NCBI GenBank assembly: GCA_902766255.1
Contig: CACXCS010000080.1
Span: 1 to 61,708 of the forward strand
Reading direction: 5' to 3'
Source of the DNA: an uncultured Bacteroidia bacterium
Lineage (GTDB): Bacteria > Bacteroidota > Bacteroidia > Bacteroidales > UBA932
DNA length: 61,708 bases
The notes beneath the pieces were generated by a model that saw nothing but the letters and a program-made list of their open reading frames with translations, searched no databases and was not told the DNA's origin. The stretch's first letter is position 1. Every line of letters starts with the position of its first letter. The position numbers and the translations under genes are program-made. Below, one piece after another: positions 19,772 to 26,310 of this stretch.

Positions 19772-21322
19772 ATGAAAGAGTTTGAAATAACCTGCCCGCT
19801 TACCCGGGAGCCAAGATTGAAGGAGATAGAAGCCAGGGCCGGAGGCCTTGAATGGGTGCTCAAGAAGCGCTCCGTTGATGCGCGCAAGGAGCCCGTATGG
19901 CGCTATCAGTATGAGGCTTACGGTCCGGGAGAGGCTCCAGATACGTATGTTCAAGAGCCCTACAAAGATGTTCATGCTGCGCCTCCCGTGCTGATTGTGG
20001 GAGCAGGCCCTGCCGGGATGTTCGCGGCGCTCAAACTGCTTACCCTCGGCCTTAAACCGGTGGTACTGGAGCGCGGAAAGAATGTACATGAACGCAAGTT
20101 CGACATGGCGCACCTGTCCCGCGAGGGTGTGGTTGACCCTGATTCGAATTACTGCTACGGCGAGGGCGGCGCCGGTGCTTTTTCTGACGGAAAGCTCTAT
20201 ACCCGCTCGTCCAAGCGCGGCGATATCCGAGAGGTACTGCATCAGCTTGTGGCTTTCGGAGCATCCAAAGACATACTCATTGACGCTCACCCGCATATCG
20301 GTTCGGACAAGCTTCCTACCGTGGTTGAAAATATCCGCAAATGCGTTACTGAGCACGGCGGCGAATATCATTTCGGCGCCCGCGTATGCGGAATAGAGAG
20401 CACTCCTGACGGCGTTTATGCCGTATGCGCCGACGGCAGGAGTTTCAGCGGCCGCCGGCTCATACTTGCCACCGGCCATTCAGCGCGCGATGTATATGAA
20501 TTGCTTCAGTCTCGCGGCGGGGCCCTCGAAGCCAAAGGATTTGCTCTTGGCGTGCGGGTGGAGCATCCGCAGGAGAAGATCAATTTCCACCAGTATCACG
20601 GGCAGTGGAAACCTGGGGTGCCTGCAGCGGAGTATTCATTCGTTGAGCAGGTTGACGGCAGGGGAGTATTCTCTTTCTGCATGTGCCCGGGGGGCATTCT
20701 TGTGCCCTCTTCCACCGAACCTCGCACTGTGGTCCTGAACGGTATGTCAAACTCTGGCCGGAGCGGAAAGTTCGCCAACGCCGGAGTGGTGGTTCAGATT
20801 GAGCCGGAGGACGTTCCGGGCGAGGGTCCCTTCCGCCTGATGGACTTCCAGCAGGCAGTGGAGCGACGCATGTTCGACTGGTGCGAGGAGCAGCGCTGCT
20901 CCGGAGCCAAAGACATCCCCCAGAATCCTATGGCTGCCCCCGCGCAGCGGATGGAGGATTTCTGCCTTGGCCGGCTTAGCAAGAAAATGCCCGCTACTTC
21001 TTATTTCCCCGGGGTAATAAGCGCACCGCTTCACGAACTCCTCCCTCCCATAGTGGCGCAGAGGCTCCAGAAAGCTTTCCCGAGGGTGAAGATGAAAGGC
21101 TATTACACCAATGCGGCACTTCTTCTGGGCGTAGAGTCCCGAACCTCGTCTCCAGTGCGGGTTCCGCGCGATCCTGATACTTTGGAGTATTTGTCCGATC
21201 CTATGATCTTCCCTTGCGGCGAGGGCGCAGGCTACTCTGGCGGCATAGTGTCAAGTGCTATCGACGGCATCCGCTGTGCCCAGGCTGCCGCCGGTTTTAT
21301 TATTGATCAGGTAAATGATTGA
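19772..21322 (+). CDS. FAD-dependent dehydrogenase (COG2509 type)
   Basis: The 516-residue cytoplasmic protein has an N-terminal domain of about 65 residues and then the dinucleotide-binding motif VLIVGAGPAGMFAAL (GAGPAG at 77-82). The family signature GEGGAGAFSDGKLYTRSS follows. Later segments include LATGHSARDVYELL and, at the C-terminus, the FAD contact CGEGAGYSGGIVSSAIDG. Members of this family are uncharacterised oxidoreductases found widely in bacteria; the substrate is unknown. It starts 20 bases after the DUF4421 gene and overlaps the radical SAM gene by eight bases, so it may serve the biosynthetic block that follows. Confidence 0.88.
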   Translation: MKEFEITCPLTREPRLKEIEARAGGLEWVLKKRSVDARKEPVWRYQYEAYGPGEAPDTYVQEPYKDVHAAPPVLIVGAGPAGMFAALKLLTLGLKPVVLERGKNVHERKFDMAHLSREGVVDPDSNYCYGEGGAGAFSDGKLYTRSSKRGDIREVLHQLVAFGASKDILIDAHPHIGSDKLPTVVENIRKCVTEHGGEYHFGARVCGIESTPDGVYAVCADGRSFSGRRLILATGHSARDVYELLQSRGGALEAKGFALGVRVEHPQEKINFHQYHGQWKPGVPAAEYSFVEQVDGRGVFSFCMCPGGILVPSSTEPRTVVLNGMSNSGRSGKFANAGVVVQIEPEDVPGEGPFRLMDFQQAVERRMFDWCEEQRCSGAKDIPQNPMAAPAQRMEDFCLGRLSKKMPATSYFPGVISAPLHELLPPIVAQRLQKAFPRVKMKGYYTNAALLLGVESRTSSPVRVPRDPDTLEYLSDPMIFPCGEGAGYSGGIVSSAIDGIRCAQAAAGFIIDQVND

Positions 21323-22541
21323 TTTCAAGCCATTTTATTCCAGCCGGAGCACTGTGTACAACCTTCCTGGTTTCGACCCCGGGAAGGTGGACAAAGCGTA
21401 TCTGCAGAACCTTGGAGTGAATGTGGAACCTTCCGAAGATACCCTCTGCGCCCTTGCAGCAGGCTCGGAAGTATTCCGCCGGCGCTTTTCAGAGAATTTG
21501 CTTATCCCCAGGCAGCGGTACCGCCTTGAGGAACTCGACCCTGCCGCCGTCAGTCCCGAGATTCACAATTATACTGGCCGCTGCCCGACCCTTACTTACG
21601 AGATCAATCCGGTGAGGGGTTGTACCGTAGGCTGCCAGTACTGCCTTGTGAGCGACGGCGTTCACGAACAGGAACTGGTGGCCTTCGATAATTATCATCT
21701 GTATGTACGGCGGCTTCTCGATGAGCAGAATGGCCCGGGCAGTGCCAACCAGCGGCACTACTATTATTTTTCTCCCAAGACCGAAGCTTTCCAGGAGGCT
21801 ACTTTGTATACAGGTATCGCACATCGCATCCTTTTGGAATTCATCGATCATTTCAAACGCTGTCCAGGCTCACAGGCACGCCTTTTCATAGCATCCAAGG
21901 CCGGAGCCAGGCATCTGGAATGCAAATACCAGGGCCTGAGCGTACTTGACTTGTTCGAGCAGCTGAAAGGGCGCATGCAATTCAATACCAGCGTTTCCAT
22001 CATGCCTGATGCTTTCAGGGACATCCTTGAACCTTACGCTGCTCCTTTGGACGAGCGCCTGGCGGCCGTGAAGCTGTGCCGCGGCGCAGGCATACCTGCC
22101 GACTCTGCCCTTGTTCAGCCTATAATAACGCCCTGGCTTACACCGGAGCACATCAGTGGCTTTTTCAGCGCATTGCATGAGGCCGGCATAGTAAACTACA
22201 AGCCGGAGTTCCTTACCGCCTGCGTGGAGAATATAGCCATGCTCGGTCAGTATCTTGGCTGGTTTGACAAGAATCTTGAGAGACAGCTCTACGAAGATTA
22301 TCTGATGCCTTCCAACGAGACTCACCGCAAACAACGCGGCCGTATTGCTCCTGACAAGGAGCGCAGCCGCGGTTATTTGAAGGCGATGATGGATTGTACG
22401 GACCGCCTCGGCATGAGCGTAAGTATATGCTACTGGGTGCGTAAGCAGCTGAATATCAGCGAGGATATCATCCCGCTGATCAACCGTAACGGCTTTCAGT
22501 GCCTTGGCTACCAGTCCAAACTGTTCGGAAGTGATGTATAG
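21315..22541 (+). CDS. Radical SAM protein related to spore photoproduct lyase
   Basis: The 408-residue protein has the [4Fe-4S] motif Cx3Cx2C at Cys103, Cys107 and Cys110 (RGCTVGCQYC), followed by TIM-barrel features such as the YYYFSPKTE and FNTSVSIMP strands. The ITYEINPVRGC-like context (LTYEINPVRG) resembles the SPL branch rather than SPASM-type maturases, because no cysteine-rich C-terminal domain is visible. The chemistry and substrate are unknown. In a non-spore-former a DNA-photoproduct role is uncertain. It overlaps the FAD dehydrogenase by eight bases and the ATP-grasp gene by eight bases, so the three are probably co-expressed. Confidence 0.85.
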   Translation: MIDFKPFYSSRSTVYNLPGFDPGKVDKAYLQNLGVNVEPSEDTLCALAAGSEVFRRRFSENLLIPRQRYRLEELDPAAVSPEIHNYTGRCPTLTYEINPVRGCTVGCQYCLVSDGVHEQELVAFDNYHLYVRRLLDEQNGPGSANQRHYYYFSPKTEAFQEATLYTGIAHRILLEFIDHFKRCPGSQARLFIASKAGARHLECKYQGLSVLDLFEQLKGRMQFNTSVSIMPDAFRDILEPYAAPLDERLAAVKLCRGAGIPADSALVQPIITPWLTPEHISGFFSALHEAGIVNYKPEFLTACVENIAMLGQYLGWFDKNLERQLYEDYLMPSNETHRKQRGRIAPDKERSRGYLKAMMDCTDRLGMSVSICYWVRKQLNISEDIIPLINRNGFQCLGYQSKLFGSDV

Positions 22542-23823
22542 TGATCTGGCTGACTACTATCTCCGTTGGTATCACCAGCGTCCCGTGGCAGTCACAAGCG
22601 GGCGCCGGGAAGAGTTGCATGAACTGCACAGGGTGCTGTTGAAGTGCATAAACTATTTTGTCCGGAACTATCGCACGCTGGTACCGAGATATATGCCGCT
22701 GTCGGTCAAGGAGATGGAGATACTTGACCTGCAGAGCCGCTATCCATTCCGTGCCGGAACATTCCGTCCCGACTATATTATCTCCTCTGACGGCCGTCTG
22801 CTGCTTTGCGAGATTACTTCCCGCTTTTTCGCTCACGGAATCTTCATGTCCTGGTTCGGCACAGAGTTCCTGCGGCGTGAACTCGGCCCGATGCTCACCA
22901 CCTCCGCCCCTGGCTCCTGTCCGGAAAGATGTGCCACCCTCGGCAACATAAGAGGGAGGGGCCCACGCAGTGGGAGGGGCCGCGAAGCGACTCTTTCCGG
23001 ACAGGAGCCAGGGGCGGAGGTGATGAACGAACTGACCGGCTTTGAAGGGATGATGGACTATATGCTTGAGATTACCGGCGGATGCAGGAGAATGTATGTG
23101 TTCAAGAGTGCCGACAAGAGCGGAGAGATACGCCTGTACAAGCGTTTTTACGAGTCCAAAGGCTTGGAAGTAAACATCTTGGAATCGACCGAGGTGGAAG
23201 TGCGAAAACCGGAATGGGACCGTCCCGGGACCTTTATTGCAAGCGCCCTGAACCAGACGGATATCCTGAGCTACAGTATGGATACTCTGCAGGCGATGAT
23301 GGACCATGGCATGTACAGCGACTTCCGCAATATCTTCCTGGTTCATGACAAGCGCTTCATGCACCTTTGGTTCGAGGATGAATTCACTTCCGCATGCCTC
23401 GACGGAGCCGAGACCGCCTTCCTGCGGTCACACGCCATCCCAACCTGGATCACCCCTCCTCCCGACGCCCCCGGCTACAAAGACCGCTATATTCTCAAGC
23501 CCTGGAGACTGGGAAAGAGCGAGGGCGTCAAGGCCGGTGTCCTTTGTACCGTGCAGGAGTGGGAGGAAGTATTCGACAGCGGCGCCGTGAATGGCATGAT
23601 ATGCCAACCCTTTATAAATCAACGCACAGTACCTACTGTATGGGAGGGGATCGCATTTGATGATTACATGTGCGGAATGATGCTGTGCGTTGACGACCGC
23701 CTTTTCGACGGTGGAATATTCCGTTGTTCAAGCCTGCCTGTTACCAACATAGGGGACAACCGCAAGGCCGCCACTGTGTACACCGACGATCCGGAGATTC
23801 TCAAATACTGCGACATCCTATGA
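22534..23823 (+). CDS. ATP-grasp-like ligase with an in-frame palindromic insertion
   Basis: The 429-residue product has features of a permuted, glutathionylspermidine-synthase-like ATP-grasp enzyme. These are FRPDYIISSDGRLLLCEIT (about 86-105), RYILKPWRLGKSEGV (ATP-binding lysine strand, about 310-325) and the late EGIAFDDYMCGMMLCVDD and GGIFRCSSLPVTNIG metal and phosphate loops. It probably forms an amide or ester bond using ATP; substrate unknown. Residues of about 122-163 are encoded by a 124-bp palindrome and read as a Gly, Arg, Pro and Ser-rich stretch unlike the rest. Start at 22534 is chosen because it overlaps the radical SAM stop by eight bases. It overlaps WbqC by ATGA. Confidence 0.7.
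   Translation: MYSDLADYYLRWYHQRPVAVTSGRREELHELHRVLLKCINYFVRNYRTLVPRYMPLSVKEMEILDLQSRYPFRAGTFRPDYIISSDGRLLLCEITSRFFAHGIFMSWFGTEFLRRELGPMLTTSAPGSCPERCATLGNIRGRGPRSGRGREATLSGQEPGAEVMNELTGFEGMMDYMLEITGGCRRMYVFKSADKSGEIRLYKRFYESKGLEVNILESTEVEVRKPEWDRPGTFIASALNQTDILSYSMDTLQAMMDHGMYSDFRNIFLVHDKRFMHLWFEDEFTSACLDGAETAFLRSHAIPTWITPPPDAPGYKDRYILKPWRLGKSEGVKAGVLCTVQEWEEVFDSGAVNGMICQPFINQRTVPTVWEGIAFDDYMCGMMLCVDDRLFDGGIFRCSSLPVTNIGDNRKAATVYTDDPEILKYCDIL
22899..23022. repeat. Palindromic element inserted in frame in the ATP-grasp gene
   Basis: The arms 22899-22929 and 22992-23022 are perfect 31-base inverted repeats (starting CACCTCCGCCCC and ending GGGGCGGAGGTG). They flank a 62-base centre that contains GGGAGGGGCC twice (22954-22963 and 22972-22981). 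The element is GC-rich, has no coding capacity of its own, and lies within a reading frame it does not break. It looks like a non-autonomous MITE or REP-like element comparable in behaviour to Rickettsia palindromic elements. The flanks ATGCTCAC and ATGAACGA share only four of eight bases, so a target duplication is not established. Confidence 0.92.
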
Positions 23824-26238: not shown

Positions 26239-26310
26239 TTATCGGGCGGTATTGGCTCTACCGCCTTGTTCTCAGGTTTTATGGGCGGCAGAGCCAATAC
26301 CGCCCGATAA
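26239..26310. repeat. Palindromic element between mnmA and the lytic transglycosylase gene
   Basis: Perfect 21-base inverted repeats (26239-26259 and 26290-26310, beginning TTATCGGGCGG) flank a 30-base loop that contains a further ACCGCC/GGGCGG partial stem. It fills nearly the whole gap between the two genes, with one base before the mnmA stop codon. There is no T run, so it is not an obvious terminator. It may be a repeat element or an mRNA-processing hairpin that sets unequal expression of the two genes. Confidence 0.88.

Follow-up and report, generated by a model that had tools for sequence, protein, structure and literature searches.

A palindrome of 132 bp that lies in frame within a gene for an ATP-grasp-like protein is one copy of a family of repeated elements, and across 61 relatives this family is seen only in the Bacteroidales genus to which the sequence belongs. 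Copies of the family lie in frame within other genes as well, and empty versions of several sites are found. Each copy has a conserved, folded core between two arms, which pair with each other and whose sequence is specific to the copy. At sites that are shared between genomes, the core occurs in both orientations, in some cases between related arms. We think it probable that the element is a non-autonomous mobile palindrome that is tolerated in protein loops, and that template switching rewrites its arms and flips its core.

Results

A palindrome within an ATP-grasp-like gene

We analysed a stretch of 61,708 nucleotides (the window) from an uncultured Bacteroidia bacterium. The first-pass annotation, which was made from the letters of the window, described a palindrome with an internal repeat, and both are real: two perfect 31-nt arms (22899-22929 and 22992-23022) surround 62 nt, within which GGGAGGGGCC occurs twice (22951-22963 and 22969-22981; 13 nt, 92%). 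The limits proposed at the time were about 4 nt too narrow on each side; pairing reaches 35 nt, with 34 of the 35 positions paired (22895-22929 against 22992-23026). The whole element spans 22895-23026 on the forward strand, as do all the features described here, and contributes about 44 residues in frame. Its left arm (22895-22929) has a sequence specific to this copy, and its right arm (22992-23026) is the reverse complement of the left. The 62-nt core between them (22930-22991) is conserved and is common to other copies in the same genome and in relatives. Model R1 matches the window copy at 22908-23012 (102.4 bits, E = 5e-26), and the window copy is among those used to build R1. The palindrome folds with a z-score of -10.7 as RNA and -11.5 as DNA, and none of 200 shuffled sequences was as stable. 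It is the longest inverted repeat that we found in the window with arms up to 250 nt apart; the next is 27 nt. A separate inverted repeat, with 27-nt arms (96%) and an 18-nt loop, lies at 26239-26310.

As the annotation had it, the insert is in frame and without a stop: the open reading frame at 22504-23823 runs through the palindrome. The likely start is the ATG at 22534, and with this inferred start the host gene (22534-23823) encodes 429 amino acids, insert included. Orthologs align on both sides of the insert. The label of ATP-grasp found no backing in Pfam or NCBIfam, whose profiles do not match the product, but it is backed by a profile match to the ligase Cp1B in PDB (9cjn; E = 2e-16). 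It is also backed weakly by the fold of a low-confidence predicted model (mean pLDDT 63, and below 50 in the insert residues 123-168), for which the best PDB matches are ATP-grasp enzymes (best E = 8.7e-3, none at E ≤ 0.001).

Between a conserved FG and a conserved MDY (or their aligned equivalents), the orthologs from five genomes (G027, G003, G017, G011, and G004) have 26 residues and the window protein has 67. The net gain of 41 residues, or 123 nt, corresponds to the whole palindrome with both arms. Five orthologs thus lack the segment, so it is not conserved in all of them. For the orthologs in G015 and G008, the matching pieces leave no room for an insert. In the closest ortholog, from G023, this position is occupied by a separate copy of the element that points the opposite way and adds a net 31 residues only. 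In the ortholog alignment, the insert of the window protein falls in a variable loop.

A family of elements in one genus

The palindrome is not unique in its genome. BLAST with the 124-nt element gave 29 matches there at E ≤ 0.001, including the query and its two arm self-matches, and this copy number is a minimum because the window genome is 81% complete. Matches to the core were found in 24 of 61 genomes (the window's own and 23 of the 36 others of the genus), and none of the 24 genomes from other families of the order had one. A covariance model built from 41 copies gave 2 to 49 matches in each of 19 of the 20 close genomes, 418 in total, and none in the remaining one (G314). Most of the elements are 113-156 bp, and three divergent variants are 92-108 bp. 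An exact-pattern scan of genome contigs found at least 116 carrier stretches, of which the 80 listed were used to compare copies. These 80 are all from Bacteroidales/Bacteroidia MAGs, many of which are named after ruminant samples.

Within the window genome, none of 24 copies had 700-nt flanks that match the flanks of another copy. Dispersed copies in unrelated surroundings, together with the empty sites described below, suggest that the element has spread through coding DNA. The first-pass annotation had raised the idea of a mobile family, and the many copies, several of them in frame, and the orthologs without the segment all fit that idea. Its other idea was a translated RNA hairpin that may affect the enzyme. 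Carriage by phages or plasmids was considered and rejected: there were no matches in phages or plasmids, and no exact-pattern matches in viral contigs. We found no description of the element in the open PMC papers that we searched, including PMC12306157, PMC3733652, and PMC5771137.

In-frame copies, filled sites, and empty sites

Copies lie in frame, in either orientation, within 13 conserved gene families. In the window genome, the hosts are the window gene and the genes for a U32 peptidase, a SpoU/TrmH methyltransferase, a YhhN protein, and a TsaB-like protein. In relatives, the hosts encode a MtaB-like protein, AroB, a YgiQ-like protein, a family 2 glycosyltransferase, a THUMP-like protein, an M20 peptidase, a YggS-like protein, and a FAD-dependent protein. 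(The names TrmH, MtaB, YgiQ, YggS, and TsaB are provisional.) Two Pfam domains span an insert: the substrate-binding domain of the SpoU/TrmH methyltransferase in the window genome, and Radical_SAM_N in the YgiQ-like protein. Just upstream of its host gene, the window has a gene for a FAD-dependent protein (19772-21322), which is without an element; the homolog from a relative (L169) has an in-frame variant.

A codon-usage test was applied to 135 copies (142 distinct copies, less 7 with short flanks). In 16 copies, which is a lower bound because the test missed 7 of 10 copies that we judged to be in frame by eye, the flanks code in a single frame, which stays open across the element. No copy with flanks in one frame had an internal stop. 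The flanks are coding on opposite strands in 15 copies and on one strand in different frames in 7, and 97 copies were uncalled. In six of those seven one-strand copies, the upstream frame ends at most 26 nt from the first base of the element, as expected for neighbouring genes; L154 is the remaining one.

Copies are found at the same place in orthologs of TrmH, TsaB, YhhN, MtaB, AroB, and YgiQ. When the TrmH loop was inspected by eye in 19 other genomes, 12 had a copy of the family (shortened in G129), five had a short loop (15-54 nt), and two (G137 and G287) had other inserts. The YhhN loop is short in four of eight relatives (18-27 nt) and has an insert in the other four. Between genes, the spacer that holds L007, which lies between the putative upp and rho genes, has no insert in L091 and L093. 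Insertion into pre-existing hairpins would fit the empty YhhN loop of G129 but not the upp/rho spacers that are empty in G319 and G129, which form no hairpin. That YhhN loop (L217) is a small hairpin, CTTCCCC..GGGGAAG, similar to the outer arms in the filled copy from the window genome; it may be an ancestral target or a remnant.

Other palindromes occur in the same loops. In the TrmH loops of G027, G184, and G135 (L185, L188, and L193), a second hairpin repeat follows the element directly and in frame; in L185 and L188 it is GGAGGTAC..GTACCTCC. In the TsaB loops of G023 and G071 (L207 and L203), there is an unrelated in-frame palindrome, GCCCCCGGAGC..GCTCCGGGGGC, and the same loop is filled by the element in other species. 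The TsaB loop of G177 (L210) has a 14-bp perfect hairpin without a core, which is possibly what remained after deletion of the core.

A conserved, folded core

Pair counts in alignment A1 identify three hairpins in the core. In the window copy, hairpin 1 is GCC-ACCCTC-GGC (22933-22944), hairpin 2 is CCCAC..GTGGG (22962-22974), which differs in sequence and length between copies, and hairpin 3 is CGC-GAA-GCG (22981-22989). The loop of hairpin 1, CCCTC (22937-22941), is complementary to a downstream GAGGG (22952-22956), and the two probably form a pseudoknot or an alternative stem. This complementarity is kept in 221 of 223 distinct pattern-matching places, and 11 of the 13 places with another hairpin-1 loop have the matching change in the downstream partner; the search pattern fixed three of the five loop pairs, so only two were free to vary. 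Across 41 copies, 96.3% of cells are paired in the proposed structure, and cells with double changes number 254 over the structure, as compared to 62.8 expected from shuffles. By a crude ungapped comparison, the core is 83% identical between copies in the window genome, a value biased upward because copies were located by their core. Rfam had no match to the element above the gathering score; all that it matched in the window was a tRNA at 20-92.

Arms that vary in sequence and stay paired

The arms are about 26-30 bp long and differ in sequence from copy to copy, with near-perfect pairing within each copy. In the window genome, 23 of 27 loci have at least 20 of 24 positions paired, and in these 541 of 552 positions are Watson-Crick pairs; the arms of different copies in this genome are 42% identical. 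The first-pass annotation was right about the palindrome and missed both this divergence of arms around a conserved core and the inverted core described below. All 14 of the arm pairs that we tested change on both sides among the 41 aligned copies, where the arm borders were set by complementarity. Over 139 copies, pairing is at least 85% for 25 bp and reaches background by about 33 bp, and the high inner pairing is partly selected because copies were found by their core and our scripts kept those with paired arms. Arm sequences carry little information, except for a moderately conserved inner GAAAC and a trend from purine-rich to pyrimidine-rich.

In the window genome, there is no GU excess in the arms (2 G-T and 5 A-C). 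Over all genomes there are 51 G-T and 18 A-C cells in 121 well-paired copies (73 and 43 in all 139 copies), a sign of some effect at the level of RNA or of strand. Among 41 pairs of copies with related arms, not all of which are independent, compensated changes comprise 58 transitions and 74 transversions, and uncompensated changes 46 and 26. Transversions cannot pass through GU, so stepwise selection on RNA is a poor explanation of the compensated changes, which suggest instead that one arm is copied from the other at the DNA level. Five pairs have 4 to 7 compensated arm changes, no uncompensated ones, and 0 to 2 differences in the core. We rejected the idea that the arms diverge solely by slow drift under RNA selection, given the many transversions among compensated changes and the near-identical cores that lie beside different arms.

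Rewriting of the arms seems to be episodic rather than continuous, as L259/L302 and L263/L270, two pairs with cores in the same orientation, have more uncompensated than compensated arm changes. Five copies in G319 (L369 and L374-L377) are nearly alike in their arms, and these may have multiplied with surrounding repeats, since their flanks are also similar. We also rejected, as a general rule, the idea that the arms are an inverted copy of the target flank, since the net insertion is the whole palindrome, both in the window gene (+41 residues) and in the upp/rho spacer. Two observations run counter to this rejection: the G023 homolog gains 31 residues as against a 123-bp element, and the TrmH arm in G319 ends in six bases that are also in the native left flank in both species.

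Core orientation at shared sites

By comparing the flanks of 173 distinct copies, we identified 62 orthologous-site pairs at 29 sites. The core has the same orientation in 29 pairs and is inverted in 33, and both orientations occur at 20 of the 29 sites (between genomes, in consensus assemblies). Among pairs whose flanks are at least 82% identical, seven are same and seven are inverted. Mean arm identity is 0.53 for same-orientation pairs and 0.51 for inverted pairs, as compared to 0.345 in 14,816 non-orthologous pairs. Arm identities of 0.70 or above are found in 7 of 29 same pairs, 7 of 33 inverted pairs, and 0.22% of the non-orthologous pairs. Within genome pairs, too, orthologous arms are more alike than non-orthologous ones (10 same, z = 3.6; 10 inverted, z about 5.2; these are combined scores from pairs that are not independent). 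Core divergence is 0.068 in same pairs, 0.094 in inverted pairs, and 0.117 in a sample of 1,500 other pairs, and the low values at shared sites are partly selected by the core-based search and paired-arm filter. Flanks at shared sites diverge by 22-23%, versus 7-9% for the core. The hairpin-1 subtype is common to both members in 9 of 20 orthologous pairs and in 180 of 1,723 other pairs.

The pair L271/L325 is the clearest example: its flanks have 93.6% identity, and its core matches at 68 of 68 positions yet is inverted. The arms of this pair are 77% identical, and all six changes at its 26 arm positions are compensated. The TrmH-site copies of G000 and G319 are identical over their 66-nt cores, which point the same way, but their perfect arms differ. 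Judging by these alignments, copies at several sites seem to have been inherited and to have flipped afterwards. At many shared sites, the arms of the copies are unrelated, and some of these copies may have been inserted independently.

RAYT-like transposases as a candidate mobiliser

Among the genomes that we examined, we found no mobilising enzyme, no target-site duplication, and no parent element. RAYT-like transposases are a candidate by co-occurrence, which we regard as a lead and not as a demonstration. The Pfam profile Y1_Tnp gave 0 to 6 weak matches per genome, and 2 of 33 Y1_Tnp loci (from 57 matches) had a full match to the element within about 1.5 kb. In G319, a RAYT-like gene (L370:1219-2082, reverse strand) has a copy of the element on each side (972-1102 and 2565-2695). 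The Y1_Tnp search missed this gene, and the profile is too weak. Around it, a palindromic repeat recurs in arrays with a spacing of 52 nt (L370:641-2934, contig C5), and the flanks of the G319 copies L369 and L374-L377 resemble this locus or each other.

Searching with the L370 protein gave RAYT-like matches in 20 of 21 genomes, including 10 in G319 and 12 in G072, which is more than the Y1_Tnp profile shows across the genus. The exception is G314, which is also without the element. Across 20 genomes, the number of element copies correlates with the number of RAYT-like matches (Spearman rho = 0.64, p = 0.003, uncorrected for relatedness or completeness and with gene fragments counted). Of 30 RAYT-like loci that we fetched, three have a full element match nearby (L407, which is the L370 locus, L433, and L413). 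The four closest homologs of the L370 protein (L408-L411; 72-78% identical) have no copy of the element in the DNA examined.

Other palindromes accompany such genes in the window genome. On contig C100 (L029), a RAYT-like gene (1387-2244) lies between two copies of a palindrome, CTCGGTCC..GGACCGAG (1202-1289 and 2246-2333), which is different from the element; this arrangement is REP/RAYT-like. L029 also has a divergent copy of the element at 647-750. On contig C48 (L030), another Y1_Tnp-like gene lies near palindromes of the TCTGTGGGAAT..ATTCCCACAG type.

Discussion

How the element might move and change

We propose that the element inserts whole, as arm, core, and arm, and that it lasts where it would be harmless, which is between genes or in frame in variable protein loops, where it would be neutral for the host protein. 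In-frame copies would survive presumably because frame-breaking ones were lost. Once inserted, the element would act as a long inverted repeat in DNA. Template switching by the polymerase between the arms would copy one arm onto the other and give new, well-paired arms, and the core would sometimes be replicated from the opposite strand and become inverted. The fold of the core may be kept because the core carries a signal for spread or persistence. Template switching would account for both arm matching and core inversion without a new enzyme; the core is far longer than the published spacers.

That the segment is an ordinary native loop or a single chance palindrome might be imagined from an open insert in a variable loop, but its absence from five orthologs and the many copies elsewhere refute this, and we give it almost no credence. 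A more serious alternative is that there are no flips in place: permissive loops and gaps would be hot spots for repeated, independent insertions, each in a random orientation and with its own arms. The nearly even split of orientations (29 and 33 pairs, or 7 and 7 where the flanks are at least 82% identical), the clean empty sites, the other palindromic elements in the same TrmH and TsaB loops, and the unrelated arms at many shared sites are all as this would predict. It does not explain why 7 of 33 inverted pairs reach an arm identity of 0.70 when 0.22% of 14,816 non-orthologous pairs do, why hairpin-1 subtypes are shared at orthologous sites, or how L271 and L325 come to have identical, inverted cores with 77% identical arms and 93.6% identical flanks. 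We consider it unlikely as a full account.

Alternatively, the host might select for both arms and core because the element works as a structured RNA or as a signal in the chromosome, for instance one that acts like a terminator, stabilises mRNA, or binds a protein. The strong fold, the covarying stems, the loop/strand pairing, the low divergence of cores at orthologous sites, and some G-T excess over the whole set point that way. Yet the copies lie in frame and in both orientations inside conserved genes, they are cleanly absent from several sites, the window genome lacks a GU excess (2 G-T, 5 A-C), and 74 of 132 compensated changes are transversions that GU pairs could not bridge, so that this explanation seems quite improbable to us. 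We hold even less to a dedicated site-specific invertase that would flip the core, as happens in invertons, where a recombinase produces both orientations in one population. Such systems have been reported from Bacteroides, and at 20 of 29 shared sites a segment between inverted repeats does occur both ways round, but the arms share little sequence that a recombinase could recognise (42% identity within the window genome, and only the inner GAAAC moderately conserved).

If a mobile palindrome subject to template switching is the right reading, then it is conceivable, and we suggest this with some hesitation, that the identity of the element lies in its structure and not in the sequence of its ends: a conserved, folded core would keep flipping where it lies, while the arms around it were rewritten time and again, each as the mirror copy of its partner. 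A segment of about 40 residues in many housekeeping proteins could then be coded in two alternative ways in its middle part, and the switch between them would need no dedicated recombinase and might even take place inside a single population. If the core does flip within populations, proteins would gain a new source of variation.

Palindromes inserted in frame are known above all from Rickettsia. The family described here is another large system of this kind, in gut bacteria, with filled, empty, and inverted versions of the same sites. Such sites make it possible to test how the element moves, how perfect long palindromes are kept up, at what rate templates are switched in bacterial coding DNA, and how tRNA methyltransferases and dehydroquinate synthase tolerate 40 added residues. 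For annotation, the inserted segments could be mistaken for protein domains.

Comparison with known systems

Rickettsia palindromic elements (RPEs) are palindromes of about 100-150 bp that are found between genes and in frame in conserved genes, at the same place in orthologs (PMC3767692 and PMC2229807). The element resembles RPEs in its size, in having both in-frame and intergenic copies, and in its shared places in orthologs. The first-pass annotation had likened it to RPEs, and the size, the in-frame copies, and the orthologs without the insert all agree with that likeness, which is one of behaviour. Unlike RPEs, the element belongs to another phylum (the 80 listed carriers are all Bacteroidales/Bacteroidia), and it has a conserved folded core, copy-specific arms, and a core in both orientations.

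Palindromes within genes are less confined to Rickettsia than the first-pass annotation implied: REPs, which are palindromic repeats of 20-40 bp near gene ends, are sometimes found inside genes in several species (PMC3733652). The element is like REP/RAYT systems in being a palindromic repeat, and RAYT-like genes are common in the genus, in numbers that correlate with the copies. REPs are GTAG- or CGTC-tagged and 20-40 bp long, whereas the element is mostly 113-156 bp, and RAYT-like loci rarely have a copy nearby.

The ends of MITEs are defined by sequence. A MITE has defined terminal inverted repeats, a target-site duplication, and a parent transposon, while the element has variable arms whose pairing is kept and no parent that we could find. 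Like the bacterial MITEs Correia/NEMIS, RUP, and ERIC, the element is small, non-autonomous, and repeated, with inverted ends and in-frame fusions; for those MITEs, some in-frame fusions are described in PMC2229807.

The pattern at shared sites resembles that of inverted repeats altered by template switching. In yeast, template switching is reported to homogenise arms and invert spacers, including in coding DNA, with flips that recur across strains (PMC8604942); it has also been proposed to create and maintain perfect RNA stems (PMC8794818). The element has the same pattern, with matched arms and a spacer inverted at orthologous sites, and presumably a similar mechanism. In the yeast cases, the spacers measure 2-5 bp and the arms 10-16 bp (Table 2 of PMC8604942), whereas here the arms are about 30 bp long and the folded core, itself a repeated element, is about 60-90 nt. 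Finally, the element is like the invertons of Bacteroides in that a segment lies between inverted repeats and occurs both ways round (here, between genomes), but unlike them it is tiny, dispersed, and structured, and it has no fixed repeat sequence.
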